Shown piece after piece: positions 2,292 through 42,728 of a DNA stretch of 42,728 nt (position 1 is the first letter of the stretch; every line of letters begins with the position of its first letter). Under the pieces are notes generated by a model that was given only the letters and a program-made list of their open reading frames with translations, was not told the DNA's origin and made no database searches. Both the position numbers and the translations under genes were made by a program. The DNA comes from Elusimicrobiota bacterium (GTDB lineage: Bacteria; Elusimicrobiota; Elusimicrobia; Elusimicrobiales; UBA9959), in assembly GCA_016209085.1 (NCBI GenBank), contig JACQWV010000035.1, positions 1 through 42,728 on the forward strand. Direction: 5' to 3'.

Positions 2292-3752
2292 TCAGGTTTT
2301 AGGTCGCAGGTTTTTTAAGAATTTGGCGGTTCGGATATAGCCTTTTGCCGAAAGGATTCTGGCATTCACAAACTGGCCGGAATGTAAATTTTCAGCTTTT
2401 GTTATTATTATTCTTCCGTCAATGTCCGGAGCGTCTTTTTCGGTTCTTCCCGACTGGGTATCGTCCATAAGCACGGTCAGGTTCTTTCCCATCAGGGACT
2501 CGTTGATTTTGTCAATCACCCTGCTTTGCGTCTCTATCAGAGCGTTGAATCTGGCTGTTTTTTCCCGCTCCGGAATCTGGTTCTCATATGCGCAGGCAGG
2601 AGTTTCTTTTTCCCTGAAATACTTGAAAATCCCAAGGCTGTAAAAACCGGCCTCCCGGGTGAATTTAAGAAGTTTTCTGAAATCCTTTTCGGTTTCTCCC
2701 GGGAAGCCTGCTATAAAATTGGTTCGCACAGCGATATCCGGAATCTTTTTCCTGATTCTTTCCATTGTCTTTTTTATTGAATCTTCTCTGGAAATTCTGT
2801 TCATCTTTTGCAAAATATTATCAGAAATATGCTGAAGAGGCATGTCCAGATATCTGCATATTTTTTCTTCGTTTTTTATGGTTTCAAGAAGCTCCCAATC
2901 CACGCGCTCAGGGTAAGCGTACATTACCCTTATCCATTTTAAATCCCTTATTCCTGATAATTTTTTTAACAGTTTTGCCAGCGCCGGTTTGCGGTATATG
3001 TCTATTCCGTAGGAGGTGGTATCCTGCGCCACCAGCGAAATCTCTTTAGCGCCTGTTTCGGCAAGCAGGCGGGCTTCCGATAAAACCTGCTCCAGCGGCT
3101 TTGAACGGAAACCCCCCCTTATGGACGGAATCGTGCAGTATGAACAGCGGTTGTTGCACCCGTCCGCTATTTTCAGATAAGCCGAATGGCTCATTGTGAG
3201 CCGCATTTTCACCCCGTTCCAAATCCGCCCTCCCGCCTTGGCGGGACGGCGGCAGCCGCCTCGGGGCGGCTTATTTGTAACGGGGTGAATTTCAGGCAAT
3301 CTGGGATGTTCCGGAATGAAAGTTTCGCCTTTTTTTATCGCTTGCGCGATTTTATCAATTCCGGATATGCCTACGCACGCGTCAACCCCGTTCCAAATCC
3401 GCCCTCCCGCCAAGGCGGGACGGCGGCAGCCCCGCCTATGGCGGGGCTTATTTGTAACGGGGTAAATTTCCCTGAACCGTTTTAATATTTCCTCTTTCCG
3501 CCTCTCAACCAAACAACCTGTCACCACTATTTTTTTAAATACTCCCCTTTTTTTCAGCGCTATCAGTCTTTTAATTTCTTTTTCGGATTCCTTTACCGCG
3601 GGCTTGATGAATGCGCAGGTGTTTATGAGGGCTATGTCGGCGTCCGATTCTCTGTTTGTGAAAGAAAAGCCGGCTTCTGCCAGATGCCCCGCCATGATTT
3701 CGGCGTCAGTCAGATTTTTCGGGCAGCCCAGGTTGATTATAATGACTTTCAT
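2292..3752 (-). CDS. rimO: Ribosomal protein S12 methylthiotransferase RimO carrying two in-frame palindromic inserts
   Basis: RimO adds a methylthio group to an aspartate of ribosomal protein S12 using two [4Fe-4S] clusters. The UPF0004 domain carries Cys10, Cys46 and Cys80, the radical SAM site is C199-x3-C203-x2-C206, and a C-terminal TRAM-like domain follows. At 486 residues it is about 50 longer than usual. The excess lies in two inserts at about 97-122 and 156-180 that encode nearly the same peptide (PVTNKP..GCRRPA.AGGRIWNGV), each made by a palindromic DNA repeat. Both lie in the linker between the UPF0004 and radical SAM domains, so the catalytic cores are intact. Last gene of the kor-suc run, 32 bp after corA. 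Confidence 0.93.
   Translation of the reverse strand: MKVIIINLGCPKNLTDAEIMAGHLAEAGFSFTNRESDADIALINTCAFIKPAVKESEKEIKRLIALKKRGVFKKIVVTGCLVERRKEEILKRFREIYPVTNKPRHRRGCRRPALAGGRIWNGVDACVGISGIDKIAQAIKKGETFIPEHPRLPEIHPVTNKPPRGGCRRPAKAGGRIWNGVKMRLTMSHSAYLKIADGCNNRCSYCTIPSIRGGFRSKPLEQVLSEARLLAETGAKEISLVAQDTTSYGIDIYRKPALAKLLKKLSGIRDLKWIRVMYAYPERVDWELLETIKNEEKICRYLDMPLQHISDNILQKMNRISREDSIKKTMERIRKKIPDIAVRTNFIAGFPGETEKDFRKLLKFTREAGFYSLGIFKYFREKETPACAYENQIPEREKTARFNALIETQSRVIDKINESLMGKNLTVLMDDTQSGRTEKDAPDIDGRIIITKAENLHSGQFVNARILSAKGYIRTAKFLKNLRPKT
3211..3286. repeat. Coding palindromic element 'PVTNK', copy in rimO (insert 2)
   Basis: A 76-bp palindrome with ends ACCCCGTTCCAAAT and ATTTGTAACGGGGT (13 of 14 bases complementary), plus inner hairpins of the CCGCC/GGCGG type. 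It is read on the minus strand as PVTNKPPRGGCRRPAKAGGRIWNGV. A 79-bp copy lies at 3385-3463 and a 73-bp intergenic copy at 37957-38029. The three lengths differ by multiples of three. Confidence 0.9.
3385..3463. repeat. Coding palindromic element 'PVTNK', copy in rimO (insert 1)
   Basis: A 79-bp palindrome with the same termini and the same orientation and reading frame as the copy at 3211-3286. It is translated as PVTNKPRHRRGCRRPALAGG plus RIWNGV. The inner hairpin sequence differs (CCCCGCCTATGGCGGGG), as expected if stems evolve by compensatory change. Confidence 0.9.
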
Positions 3753-20411: not shown

Positions 20412-20533
20412 GTAAATATTCAGCGAATCCCGTTGTCATTCCCACGAAACTTGTCCCTGCAGGTAGTAAGCAGGGAGTGGGAATCCATAGATTCCCGTTT
20501 ACACGGGAATGACGTGCTTCAGTGAGCATTTAC
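20412..20533. repeat. 122-bp shell element with GTCATTCCC core, copy 1
   Basis: This is identical, as far as can be read, to 38046-38167 in the opposite orientation. Ends are GTAAATATTCAGCGAA and (reverse) GTAAATGCTCACTGAA, an imperfect 16-bp terminal inverted repeat. The core has GTCATTCCC palindromes (CCCGTTTACACGGG and a CCCTGC...GCAGGG stem). The rest of the gap 20393-20563 is low-complexity GTAAAG-type sequence. Confidence 0.85.
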
Positions 20534-32203: not shown

Positions 32204-32976
32204 ACGTCATCGTCACTTTGGGAGCGACAAGGGAATATATTGATGCCGTGCGCTTCATAAGCAACGCAAGCACGGGCGCTACCGGCAGCGCGTTGGCGGA
32301 TTTCTTTGCCTCAAAAGGCTTCCGGGTGTCGGCGTTGTGCGCGGCGAATTCAATAAAACCGAAAAACAAAAAGGTGGAAATATTGGAATTTTCCGATTTC
32401 AGCGATCTAAACGGCAAAATAAAGAATCTTCTTAAAACGCGCTCTTTTGATATTTTTATTCACTGCGCGGCTGTAAGCGATTATTCCGTCCGCTCCCCTT
32501 GTCTGAAAACAAAACTTGACTCGGGTTCCGGGACGCTTAAAATAATTTTAAAAAGGAATTTTAAAATAGTTGAGCGGATAAAACGGTACGCACGAGCAAA
32601 CCCTTCAGACAAAAAGCCGGAACAGGGCGGCATTGCCCGCAATCGGTGCAGCGAGCACTGCGAACTGCCGGAACAGGGCGGCATTGCCCGCAATCGGTGC
32701 AGCGAGCACTGCGAACTGCCGGAACAGGGCGGCATTGCCCGCAATCGGTGCCGTGAGTTATACGAACGGCCGTATCTGGCTGCGTTTAAACTGACCTGCG
32801 CCGCCGGCAAAAAAGAAATTTTATCAGCCGTGTCAAAACTGAAATCAGCGGATATCGTGGTTCACAACGACATAAATGAAAAAGGCTTTTTTCATTTATA
32901 CAAAAACGGCTCTAAAACGGCCGATTGCCGCGGAACGCGGGAACTCGCAAAAAAGATTTTAAAAGAAATTCCTTAA
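32200..32976 (+). CDS. coaB: Phosphopantothenate-cysteine ligase (stand-alone CoaB) with triple 17-residue repeat
   Basis: CoaB joins cysteine to phosphopantothenate using CTP. The start VIVTLGATREYIDAVRFISNASTG and AAVSDYS match the C-terminal half of fused CoaBC. Between SDKK (about 139) and RPYLAAFKL (about 191) lie three tandem units of PEQGGIARNRCSEHCEL, the third diverged. They sit in the loop before the conserved FKL strand, near the dimer/substrate region, so they add about 51 residues to an otherwise normal protein. It is coupled to coaC by a 4-bp overlap. Confidence 0.9.
   Translation: MNVIVTLGATREYIDAVRFISNASTGATGSALADFFASKGFRVSALCAANSIKPKNKKVEILEFSDFSDLNGKIKNLLKTRSFDIFIHCAAVSDYSVRSPCLKTKLDSGSGTLKIILKRNFKIVERIKRYARANPSDKKPEQGGIARNRCSEHCELPEQGGIARNRCSEHCELPEQGGIARNRCRELYERPYLAAFKLTCAAGKKEILSAVSKLKSADIVVHNDINEKGFFHLYKNGSKTADCRGTRELAKKILKEIP
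32617..32769. repeat. Three tandem 51-bp units in coaB
   Basis: Units at 32617-32667 and 32668-32718 are identical as read, and the third (32719-32769) diverges in its last half. Each unit contains small palindromes (GGGCGGCATTGCCC; GTGCagcgaGCAC). The 51-bp period is 17 codons. Confidence 0.93.
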
Positions 32977-37610: not shown

Positions 37611-37616
37611 CAAACG

Positions 37617-37798
37617 CTGTTACTGGTTACTTGGTTACTGGTTACTGCCGTTATGCCATTGCTGTTACTGGTTACTTGGTTACTGGTTACTGCTGTTATG
37701 CCGTTGCTGTTACTGGTTACTTGGTTACTGGTTACTGCTGTTATGCCGTTGCTGTTACTGGTTACTTGGTTACTGGTTACGTTACTGGTTACTGCTGT
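37617..37798. repeat. 45-bp tandem repeat array upstream of tRNA-Arg
   Basis: Three near-perfect 45-bp units and a fourth altered unit start at 37617, 37662, 37707 and 37752. Each is CTGTTACTGGTTACTTGG, TTACTGGTTACTGCTGTT, ATGCCGTTG. Inside a unit, GTTACTG(G) recurs, so it is a higher-order repeat of the GTAACCAG word. It starts seven bases after the four-helix gene stop and ends three bases before the tRNA. It is not CRISPR: there are no unique spacers. Confidence 0.92.
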
Positions 37799-37801
37799 AT
37801 A

Positions 37802-37873: not shown

Positions 37874-37956
37874 ATTAAATAGTAACCAGTAACCGGCAAC
37901 AGCAAAAATTGTAGTTGCAGAGCTTGCTCTGCGTTATAAACGACAGTAACCGGTAA

Positions 37957-38029
37957 ACCCCGTTAGAAATCCGCCCTGCCCGAAGGGCACGGCGGCAGCC
38001 GCCTCGGGGCGGCTTATTTCTAACGGGGT
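37957..38029. repeat. Coding palindromic element 'PVTNK', intergenic copy
   Basis: A 73-bp palindrome, ends ACCCCGTTAGAAAT and ATTTCTAACGGGGT (perfectly complementary). It would be read on the minus strand as PVRNKPPRGGCRRALRAGRI, then SNGV, the same peptide as in rimO. It lies between the tRNA and the 122-bp element. A short palindrome GCAGAGCTTGCTCTGC is at 37917-37932. Confidence 0.88.
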
Positions 38030-38045
38030 AAACAGCAGAAAAATT

Positions 38046-38167
38046 GTAAATGCTCACTGAAGCACGTCATTCCCGTGTAAACGGGAATCTATGGATTCCC
38101 ACTCCCTGCTTACTACCTGCAGGGACAAGTTTCGTGGGAATGACAACGGGATTCGCTGAATATTTAC
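38046..38167. repeat. 122-bp shell element with GTCATTCCC core, copy 2
   Basis: Same sequence as 20412-20533 in inverse orientation over the full 122 bp. Perfect identity over this length in noncoding DNA points to recent spread or gene conversion. Confidence 0.88.
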
Positions 38168-40142: not shown

Positions 40143-40258
40143 CAAACAGTCAGTTGCCCGTAGAAAATCCCTTTGTGTCCTTCTTGCCCGGTGGTCCCGA
40201 TGCCGACCCTGTCATTCGACAGGGCAAGCGTTGCCGGACGAAACACGGTTGGCGGTTA

Positions 40259-40524
40259 GGGACCGTTAATAAATTACTGACATATTTGGCTGAGCTGATT
40301 TTTGAGCGAGACAAGGAACAAGGAGCGCGCATAACTTGGGTTATGTAAGCGACGAGCGACGCAGTTGCAGCCAAAAAGCAGCCAGCCCCTTCGGGGGAAG
40401 CCGATATGCGGCCATCTGCTGCGTTGCTCCTCACTCACATACCACAAGGTATGCTTATTCGTCGCGCCTTGCATCTGACCCCATCTCGGCTTCCCAAATG
40501 TATCAGTAATTTATTAACGGTCCC
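40259..40524. mobile_element. MITE-like element with 22-bp perfect terminal inverted repeats
   Basis: The left end GGGACCGTTAATAAATTACT plus GA (40259-40280) is exactly complementary to the right end at 40503-40524. The 266-bp interior has no gene and has its own palindrome CATACCACAAGGTATG. TTA flanks both ends (40256-40258 and 40525-40527), a likely 3-bp target duplication, and the right TTA is the stop codon of the ATPase gene. The rest of the 382-bp gap (40143-40258) holds a CCCTGTCATTCGACAGGG palindrome and no gene. Confidence 0.88.
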
Positions 40525-41658
40525 TTATATGAATTTCAGCATGAAATCGTAAAGAGGAATAACCGTGATTTTGGATGAAAGCCTGTATATGTCTTTCCCC
40601 GCATAAATAACCCATAAGTGTTCAAGATTGAGATCCGAAACGGCGGAAAGCATGGATTTGGTTGTTGTCGGAGCGTCGTTGTATTTAAATTCCACTCCCC
40701 AGTTTTTGTTTTTATCCTGCCAAAAAAGATCAAGCTCGGCTCCCGCGTGCGTTTTCCAAAAAAAAATCCGATGAGAGTTTTTATTTAAAATCCTTAAGAC
40801 CTGTTCAATGGCGAATCCTTCCCAGGAGAAACCTATTTTCGGAGAGCCGGCCAGCTGAATGTAGTTGTTTATTCCGCTAAAATAATGGAATATTCCGCTG
40901 TCTCTTATGTAAATTTTGGGATTTTTAACCAGCCTTTTTTTTGTATTGTTATGCCATGGCTGGAGAACTCTTACCGTGAAAGTTTCGGAGAGGATGTCTA
41001 TATAGCGCCTTACCGTCATATCTGACATGCCGAATATCCTTCCGATTTCCGAATAATTCACAATCTGGCCGTGATAGGCGGATAAAATCATCCAGAATTT
41101 GCGCAAAACGCCGCCAGGAATTTTTATGCCGAATTGGGGAATATCTCTTTCAAGAAAAGAGGAGATGTAATTTTCCAGCCAGAGCCCGCTTTTTCCATAA
41201 TTTGAGGCCAGAAATGACCGGGGGAATCCCCCTTTCATCCATAAATCCCTAAACCCGTCTTTCCCGACATCAAGCGGCGTGAATCCGCCGAGTTCAAAGT
41301 AAGAAATCCTGCCCGCCAGACTTTCAGAGCTTTTTTTTATCAAATCCGGAGAGGCGCTTCCGAGTATAAGATATTTTTGTTTTTTGTTCTTATCCACGAG
41401 ATATCTTAAAAGCGGAAAAAGACCGGGTTTTCTCTGGATTTCATCTATTACAATCAGCCCTTTAAGGTCTTCAAGAAGAAGTTGGGGATTTTCGAATTTG
41501 GCCAGGTCCCTTGGATTTTCAAGATCAAAAAAATAGTCATAAGACAACAGAGCGGCAAGCGTGGTTTTCCCGCACTGTCTTGGACCGAGTATCGCGGTTA
41601 CGGGAAACTCTTCCATAAGCGAATGTATTTTTTTAATCTCAAGTTTTCTTTTGATCAT
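40525..41658 (-). CDS. AAA ATPase with C-terminal DUF4143 (nuclease-like) domain
   Basis: This 377-residue protein has Walker A GPRQCGKTT (25-33), Walker B GLIVIDEIQ, a sensor-like LGSAS, a winged-helix region (NYSEIGRIFGMSDMTVRRYIDIL) and a C-terminal DUF4143 domain. The latter has a PD-(D/E)xK-like pattern (GAELDLFW...WGVEFKY). Members are common, usually orphan genes; a defence or toxin-like role has been suspected for the group but is not shown. The stop codon coincides with the end of a MITE. Confidence 0.9.
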   Translation of the reverse strand: MIKRKLEIKKIHSLMEEFPVTAILGPRQCGKTTLAALLSYDYFFDLENPRDLAKFENPQLLLEDLKGLIVIDEIQRKPGLFPLLRYLVDKNKKQKYLILGSASPDLIKKSSESLAGRISYFELGGFTPLDVGKDGFRDLWMKGGFPRSFLASNYGKSGLWLENYISSFLERDIPQFGIKIPGGVLRKFWMILSAYHGQIVNYSEIGRIFGMSDMTVRRYIDILSETFTVRVLQPWHNNTKKRLVKNPKIYIRDSGIFHYFSGINNYIQLAGSPKIGFSWEGFAIEQVLRILNKNSHRIFFWKTHAGAELDLFWQDKNKNWGVEFKYNDAPTTTKSMLSAVSDLNLEHLWVIYAGKDIYRLSSKITVIPLYDFMLKFI

Positions 41659-41738
41659 AATACAAATATAACAGATTATCCTTGAAAAATCAACATCTGC
41701 TGTTGGATCTTCAAGGATTTATTGAATAACCCGAAAAA

Positions 41739-42035
41739 CTAATTTTTCAACTTCTTTATTTCTGCCTTTAGTTCTTCTATTTCTTCCTTCTGCTCCTTGA
41801 GGGCTTTAAGCATGAGAACAGTAACGCCGTTCCAGTTGACGTTCATAACTTTATTATCCGGACCAGTGACAGCCAATTCAGGAGCCGCTTCATAAGCCTC
41901 CTCAGCAATAAGCCCAATGTCCTTTCTGCCATCTATTTTCCATGTGAATTTGACCGGTCTGAGATTATAGAGTTTTGAGGTATCCATGGTTAGGTCATTG
42001 ATGTCCTTTTTGAATCGCGCCGAGGAGGTGCACCA
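41739..42035 (-). pseudogene. Truncated S74 (endosialidase-type) chaperone domain, copy 1
   Basis: Reading from TGG at 42035, the frame gives CTSSARFKKDINDLTMDTSKL, then YNLRPVKFTWKIDGRKDIGLIAEE, GVTVLMLKALKEQ and a coiled-coil end. This is the intramolecular chaperone domain of tail spikes and large surface proteins, which cuts itself off. No start or upstream shaft is present: above 42036 a GTAGCGG...CGCGTAGGA palindromic repeat (about 42058-42093) and a stop intervene. It is therefore a fragment. An internal ATG at 41987 gives 82 residues. A near-identical copy starts at 42563. Confidence 0.78.
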
Positions 42036-42154: not shown

Positions 42155-42562
42155 ATGAAAAACAATAACATCCAGCCTGCCAGCAAAAAAGACCTTGACA
42201 ATGTGAAAACCGAGCTTAGAACCGAACTTAAAAATGTGAGAACCGAGCTTAAAAAAGATATAAATATTCTGGACCAAAAAGCAAACACCTTGGACCAAAA
42301 AGTAAACACCCTGGACCAAAAAGTAAACACCCTGGGCGTTGAACTGGCCAAGACCAATTTAAGCATAAACCGCATGGAAAACAACATGATGACAGCGATT
42401 ACAAATTTTAAGAGCGAAATTCTTTCAGCAGTAGACATTTTTGCGAGAGAAGCCGAAGATTACAGAAGAAAAGACCTGGAACGCGGACACATGCTCATGG
42501 TCCAGGATGATAAGTTGCAAAACCACGAAACCCGCATTACCCTGCTTGAAACCAAAAAATAA
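42155..42562 (+). CDS. Coiled-coil protein with heptad repeats
   Basis: A 135-residue protein, almost fully helical, with three exact or near-exact heptads LDQKxNT (21-bp units, 42272-42334) after NVKTELRTELKNVRTELKKD. A start at 42155 is preferred to 42101, whose extension is not typical. The family resembles small coiled-coil DUF1640-like proteins; function unknown. Its TAA is followed at once by the stop codon of the second S74 copy on the other strand. Confidence 0.65.
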   Translation: MKNNNIQPASKKDLDNVKTELRTELKNVRTELKKDINILDQKANTLDQKVNTLDQKVNTLGVELAKTNLSINRMENNMMTAITNFKSEILSAVDIFAREAEDYRRKDLERGHMLMVQDDKLQNHETRITLLETKK

Positions 42563-42728
42563 CTAATTTTTTAACTTCTTTATTTCCGCCTTTAGTTCTT
42601 CTATTTCTTCCTTCTGCTCCTTGAGAGCTTTAAGCATGAGAACAGTAACGCCGTTCCAGTTGACGTTCATAATTTTATTATCCGGACCAGTGACAGCCAA
42701 TTCAGGAGCCGCTTCATAAGCCTCCTCC
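42563..42728 (-). CDS. S74 chaperone domain, copy 2 (partial, runs off window)
   Basis: The visible 55 residues end GVTVLMLKALKEQKEEIEEL, then KAEIKKLKN, the same as copy 1 except one Val/Ile change. About 160 of 166 bases match. The gene continues beyond the window, so it could be the intact parent of the fragment at 41739. Confidence 0.75.
   Translation of the reverse strand, partial: EEAYEAAPELAVTGPDNKIMNVNWNGVTVLMLKALKEQKEEIEELKAEIKKLKN

Follow-up and report, generated by a model that had tools for sequence, protein, structure and literature searches.

RPE-like palindromic insertions in rimO of an Elusimicrobiota bacterium and a candidate GIY-YIG-encoding mobiliser

The window analysed here is a 42,728-nt stretch of the genome of an Elusimicrobiota bacterium (GenBank assembly GCA_016209085.1, contig JACQWV010000035.1, positions 1 to 42,728). 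On its minus strand, rimO (2292–3752) encodes a ribosomal protein S12 methylthiotransferase of 486 aa, in which profile searches identified UPF0004, Radical_SAM and TRAM_2 domains. Two palindromes are located within the gene, copy 1 at 3212–3285 (74 nt, minus strand, from CCCCG to CGGGG, end subtype CCCCGTTCC/GTAAC) and copy 2 at 3386–3462 (77 nt, minus strand). Both are translated in the same frame: copy 1 encodes RimO residues ~155–180 (HPVTNKPPRGGCRRPAKAGGRIWNGV; the peptide read in that frame is PVTNKPPRGGCRRPAKAGGRIWNGV) and copy 2 encodes residues 97–123 (PVTNKPRHRRGCRRPALAGGRIWNGV plus one residue). Peptides predicted to cross the junctions of RimO include EIYPVTNKPR and IWNGVDACVGISGIDK. 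A third copy (37958–38028, plus strand, 71 nt, CCCCGTTAGAAAT ends) is intergenic, with a tRNA gene on one side and the next ORF on the other. These positions bear out the preliminary description, which had reported two same-frame palindromes in rimO and an intergenic copy; the sizes given there, 76, 79 and 73 bp, correspond to 74, 77 and 71 nt plus one flanking base on each side. When folded as single strands, all three copies formed a three-way junction with an outer stem and two inner hairpins, and the z-scores against shuffled sequences were −8.2, −7.7 and −8.2.

The gene itself is intact. RimO scored 413.9 bits against TIGR01125 (cut-off, 356.95 bits), retains its CxxxCxxC motif and is the sole match in the source genome at E ≤ 1e-60, so rimO is not a pseudogene. 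Both inserts were absent from all 20 RimO orthologues found in relatives within the family and order, in every one of which residues 97–123 (27 aa, equal to 77 + 4 nt) appeared as a clean gap. The alignment with Thermotoga RimO (4jc0) jumps from query residue 96 to residue 123, without the first insert. As judged from these alignments, the rimO palindromes are insertions. Their placement in the linker between domains, as originally proposed, is roughly right: UPF0004 stops at residue 95 and Radical_SAM begins at 195, with the inserts at 97–123 and ~155–180.

In the source genome, a stringent pattern detected 14 copies, compared with none for a reversed-pattern control, and a relaxed pattern detected at least 26 short copies (71–77 nt) plus longer cousins. 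The length of a short copy, 71, 74 or 77 nt, is set by the hairpin modules that it carries, and paired changes preserve the hairpins. Steps of three, which had been noted from the window, thus describe the short family in coding and non-coding DNA alike, but they do not extend to the 73-nt CCCCGTTCC copies that are also present, or to a longer set (96–131 nt, CCCCGTTAGAGAT ends) that is mostly intergenic and not restricted to multiples of three. Many further coding copies, the check that the preliminary description had proposed, were found, with in-frame hosts including Mfd, Obg, PheT, RdgB, an NlpC/P60-C39 peptidase, an O-antigen ligase, a histidine kinase, a nucleotidyltransferase and an ABC-2 permease. 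Three reading frames are in use (PVRNPP..LISNG, PVRNKP..RISNG and TPLEIS..FLTG). A related genome carries two copies in frame inside alanine racemase and UvrA, and glycyl-tRNA synthetase, Tgt and 3-methyladenine glycosylase are also among the hosts outside the source genome. Comparisons with PDB structures placed the extra residues of RdgB, Obg and PheT at loops or linkers. The RdgB insert falls between query residues 25 and 54, which are aligned with residues 24 and 27 of 3tqu; that of Obg separates the G domain from the C-terminal domain, and that of PheT is within its C-terminal domain.

The window contains other repeats. Identical 122-nt copies of another repeat, which contains TCATTCCCGTG, occur in opposite orientation at 20412–20533 and 38046–38167, and part of this repeat was also observed inside a long CCCCGTTAGAGAT element in locus L054. 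A 170-nt direct repeat (41734–41903 and 42558–42727, 97% identical) stops one base before the contig end. Tandem arrays occupy 37616–37800 and 32616–32779, with units of 45 nt (rich in GTTACTGGTTACTTGG, by a tRNA gene) and 51 nt (in or near an ORF).

Terminal inverted repeats of 13 bp, CCCCGTTAGARAY...RTYTCTAACGGGG, with subtypes, were present in 170 distinct copies. Exact 4-bp direct repeats flank 97 of these, compared with 7.8% when the flanks were swapped, and a 5-bp duplication fits three copies and a 6-bp duplication none. Copy 3 has an exact duplication, TAAA, at 37954–37957 and 38029–38032. The 73 copies without an exact duplication include both rimO copies, which are flanked by TTCA/TGAA (copy 1) and TCAA/TAAA (copy 2). 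The target is YNNR, with T or C at position −4 in 96% and A or G at −1 in 99%. Inverted ends and a target duplication of fixed length, two of the features expected of MITEs, are both present. Among copies inside ORFs, defined as those with at least 60 codons of the ORF on both sides, length + 4 was divisible by three in 27 of 27, compared with 61 of 143 others, which is the result predicted by purifying selection on the host genes. An artefact of library preparation was rejected because the 4-bp duplications vary and the ORFs continue in frame through the inserts; to our knowledge, the CCCCGTTAGARAY ends match no familiar adapter. At loci L139, L149, L100 and L089, insertions are nested or repeated, in that one element encloses CCCCGTTAGA-type ends or a smaller element.

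Start codons are also sites of insertion. Thirty element ends abut ATGAR start codons, and the base before a TGAR site was A in 30 of 36 cases, compared with 43 of 129 at other common sites. In 29 of these 30 cases, the element's final G joins the duplicated TG and restores a GTG start to the host gene, so that an exact insertion into a start codon would be close to harmless. The downstream ORF has at least 60 codons in 25 of these cases, and 23 of the elements supply a new in-frame ATG. Many Patescibacteria elements in A^TGAA start codons (loci L081, L098, L111, L118, L129, L132, L188 and others) contain a TATAAT-like box, a short leader ORF (MNPVRN...stop) and an additional ATG in frame; in this they resemble mobile promoters that bring their own start codon. 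The restored and newly supplied starts, the steps of three and the paired changes that keep the hairpins could be read as signs of selection, the inserts then being coding or regulatory modules (translation-coupling leaders or surface loops, for instance) and not selfish DNA. We consider this improbable: neither the hosts nor the positions are related, each copy is confined to its lineage, genomes have only the 13-bp ends in common and not the interiors, and the frame and start-codon bias is accounted for by purifying selection on the host genes. The inserts are presumably neutral rather than useful.

A scan of one genome per species detected the CCCCGTTAGARAY/RTYTCTAACGGGG ends in at least 108 stretches. 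Among the matches listed were many groups of Patescibacteria, Deltaproteobacteria, Omnitrophota, Planctomycetota, KSB1, Stahlbacteria, Nitrospiraceae and Elusimicrobia (phylum names as in the deposited records, which are mostly metagenome-assembled). One Nealsonbacterium carries ~120 ends in 0.7 Mb. Phages are not the principal carriers, since 2.9 million viral contigs yielded a single copy. When the window and 11 loci were scanned against Rfam, only tRNAs matched. In locus L170 (Doudnabacteria), an element with CCCCGTTAGARAY-type ends has an interior resembling a tRNA gene.

The palindromic elements of Rickettsia (RPEs) and those of Wolbachia are likewise short, dispersed within and between genes, and in frame in conserved proteins, and PheT and O-antigen ligase are among the hosts of both RPEs and the present elements. 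In-frame insertion into conserved protein-coding genes, a defining property of RPEs, was observed in the 27 ORF copies and in the RimO and PDB comparisons. As described, however, RPEs are Rickettsiales-specific and 100–150 bp long, with 12-bp ends, some with a terminal TA, and no established target duplication. The elements studied here are 59–131 nt (short copies, 59–96 nt) and Y-shaped, have 13-bp CCCCGTTAGARAY ends and a 4-bp YNNR duplication, reside in many phyla and have a matching GIY-YIG element. Horizontal transfer of true Rickettsia or Wolbachia elements would account for the common style, that is, similarly sized palindromes that are read in frame within conserved genes and also occur in intergenic regions (PMC2229807, PMC10969869). 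It is nonetheless highly improbable, since no Rickettsia or Wolbachia record was among the matches listed in the one-genome-per-species scan and RPEs, compared by description only, differ in size, ends and duplication. The elements work like RPEs (PMC2229807, PMC10969869), with no support for their being RPEs by descent. What the preliminary description took as the hallmark of RPEs, dispersed palindromes that encode protein in frame, thus stands as a likeness in behavior and not as a statement of origin; the 13-bp ends, the 4-bp duplication, the Y-shaped interiors, the many phyla and the ends common with a GIY-YIG element all speak against the latter. The GIY-YIG partner, the start-codon insertions and the breadth of the distribution were beyond the reach of the preliminary description.

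Over all loci analysed, 187 distinct end pairs were found, 25–131 nt apart, plus two at 179 and 201 and ten at 277–283; pairs were sought to several kb, and none of the 187 exceeded 283 bp. No DDE transposase of ordinary IS size lay between ends in the same set, and the only type of ORF between them encodes a GIY-YIG protein. The ends carry no GTAG/CGTC tag of the kind seen in REP/RAYT systems. A Nealsonbacterium element of 278 bp, with CCCCGTTAGARAY-type ends and a TGAA duplication, encodes a stand-alone GIY-YIG protein of 86 aa that scored 60.1 bits against PF01541 (cut-off, 22.6), identifying it as a GIY-YIG domain protein. Nine of the ten elements in the 277–283 peak, from eight genomes, encode GIY-YIG, and exact 4-bp duplications flank four of these nine; the pair L252 (277 bp) is non-coding. 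When 341 genomes of the source phylum were searched for pairs of ~278 bp, two were found, both with GIY-YIG. In most GIY-YIG elements the right inverted repeat encodes the C-terminus of the protein (SLTG), and the duplicated TGA, which serves as the nuclease stop codon, overlaps the GTG start regained by the host gene. Because the right repeat encodes SLTG and the duplication provides the stop, gene and ends appear to move as one unit.

In the source genome, the ends CCCCGTGAAATAA, of the CCCCGTGAAAT type, flank one GIY-YIG gene, and CCCCGTGAAAT ends also delimit two Y-shaped palindromes. No GIY-YIG gene with exact CCCCGTTAGAAAT ends was found in the source genome, the closest being the one with CCCCGTGAAAT, so that the driver of the CCCCGTTAGAAAT copies may have been lost or left unassembled, or may be one of the relatives. 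Stand-alone GIY-YIG genes are multi-copy in several of the Patescibacteria analysed. Perfect inverted repeats of at least 12 nt flank 20 of 63 stand-alone GIY-YIG genes, compared with 1.7% in swapped flanks, and the other 43 genes have no such repeat. On a nuclease tree (56 stand-alone GIY-YIG proteins, ~95 columns, weak branch support), the CCCCGT-type label required 2 changes, compared with 9.3 after shuffling (0 of 500); for the TGTCATTGCGAG-type label the corresponding figures were 2 and 4.9 (0 of 500). Other stand-alone GIY-YIG genes, in the source genome and other genomes, are flanked by the ends of very common palindromic repeats, namely TGTCATTGCGAG/GAAGCAATC, TGTCATTCCC, CCGTTCGCCCTGAGG and TGTCATCCTGAGCTTGTCGAA (loci L256, L286, L241, L226, L259, L269, L219, L247, L222, L240 and L223). 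This pattern suggests that GIY-YIG nucleases may drive several palindromic repeat families. The window also includes, at 40258–40525, a 268-bp element with near-perfect inverted ends of 32 bp (AGGGACCGTTAATAAATTACTGACATATTTGG) and TTA on both sides; a sequence similar to this element adjoins a GIY-YIG gene in locus L220.

The association of nuclease and ends could have another cause. If the palindromes were ordinary MITEs moved by an unseen DDE or other transposase, GIY-YIG would be a passenger that rides between the ends or inserts into them. Inverted ends with a short target duplication of fixed length are the classical DDE signature, and the occurrence of GIY-YIG genes beside quite different palindromes is as expected of a gene that homes into palindromes. 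We nevertheless hold a passenger role to be unlikely, given that GIY-YIG is the sole gene in 187 end pairs with no longer pair, that the nuclease clade follows the end type across genomes, and that SLTG and the stop codon point to a single moving unit.

We therefore regard it as probable that the palindromes are RPE-like MITEs mobilised in trans by an autonomous element that encodes GIY-YIG. In this model, the palindromes would be very short non-autonomous elements, with 13-bp CCCCGTTAGARAY inverted repeats, that insert at a 4-bp YNNR site and duplicate it. The autonomous form would be ~278 bp, with the same ends and a single gene for a stand-alone GIY-YIG nuclease of ~85 aa. This nuclease would cut the target, the element ends or both with a 4-nt stagger, and would mobilise any DNA bearing the ends. 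The nuclease alone may be insufficient to join the ends, and we know of no GIY-YIG homing nuclease that makes 4-bp target duplications. Since 71, 74 or 77 nt plus the 4-bp duplication gives a multiple of three, and three of the six frames are free of stops, an insertion would often leave the gene open and add a surface loop of 25–27 aa, which would explain why the element has survived in Mfd, Obg, PheT and RdgB and, in two copies, in rimO. Survival at A^TGAR start codons would follow from the GTG start that its last G and TGA restore. Beyond the model, we lean slightly towards a class of bacterial transposable element that is itself new: ~278 bp in size, with inverted ends and a 4-bp duplication, and with a minimal GIY-YIG nuclease as its sole enzyme.

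Several known systems share parts of this arrangement. REP/REPIN sequences with RAYT are also abundant hairpin-forming palindromes thought to be moved in trans by a single small nuclease gene. REPs are mostly extragenic, depend on an HUH tyrosine transposase and are not known to make a target duplication, whereas here the nuclease is of the GIY-YIG type, the ends are true inverted repeats and the target duplication is 4 bp. Bacterial MITEs such as Correia/NEMIS, ERIC, RUP and QMITE have inverted ends, a target duplication, no genes and occasional in-frame fusions (PMC2229807, PMC5896051); here, by contrast, no DDE transposase with matching ends was found in the loci analysed, the autonomous candidate encodes GIY-YIG alone, and insertions into start codons restore the start. 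Free-standing GIY-YIG homing endonucleases and Penelope retroelements also tie a GIY-YIG nuclease to selfish mobility (PMC1564403), but the present system has no intron, NUMOD or reverse transcriptase, and the 278-bp inverted-repeat element, of which gene-less derivatives exist, contains nothing but the gene. In the open-access literature, the end sequence matched only unrelated strings, and no report linked bacterial GIY-YIG to palindromic repeats, MITEs, RAYT or terminal inverted repeats; a 2006 survey of GIY-YIG did not mention palindromes. The novelty of the link is provisional, as judged from that literature.

Protein-coding palindromes have been thought a speciality of Rickettsiales, apart from scattered MITE fusions, and their mobiliser has gone unidentified for 25 years. 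Here the same phenomenon occurs in many phyla, together with a candidate enzyme small enough for a test in one experiment. If the proposal is true, a ~278-bp class of element mobilises gene-less palindromes that turn into protein segments or restored start codons, which would give selfish DNA a simple route to provide conserved proteins with new surface loops and N-termini. It would also offer a function for stand-alone GIY-YIG genes, which are present in multiple copies in several of the Patescibacteria analysed, and hint at where several abundant families of palindromic repeats came from. Relatives with TGTCATTGCGAG, TGTCATTCCC, CCGTTCGCCCTGAGG and TGTCATCCTGAGCTTGTCGAA ends would then account for several palindromic repeats that are among the most frequent in environmental bacteria and lack an explanation.
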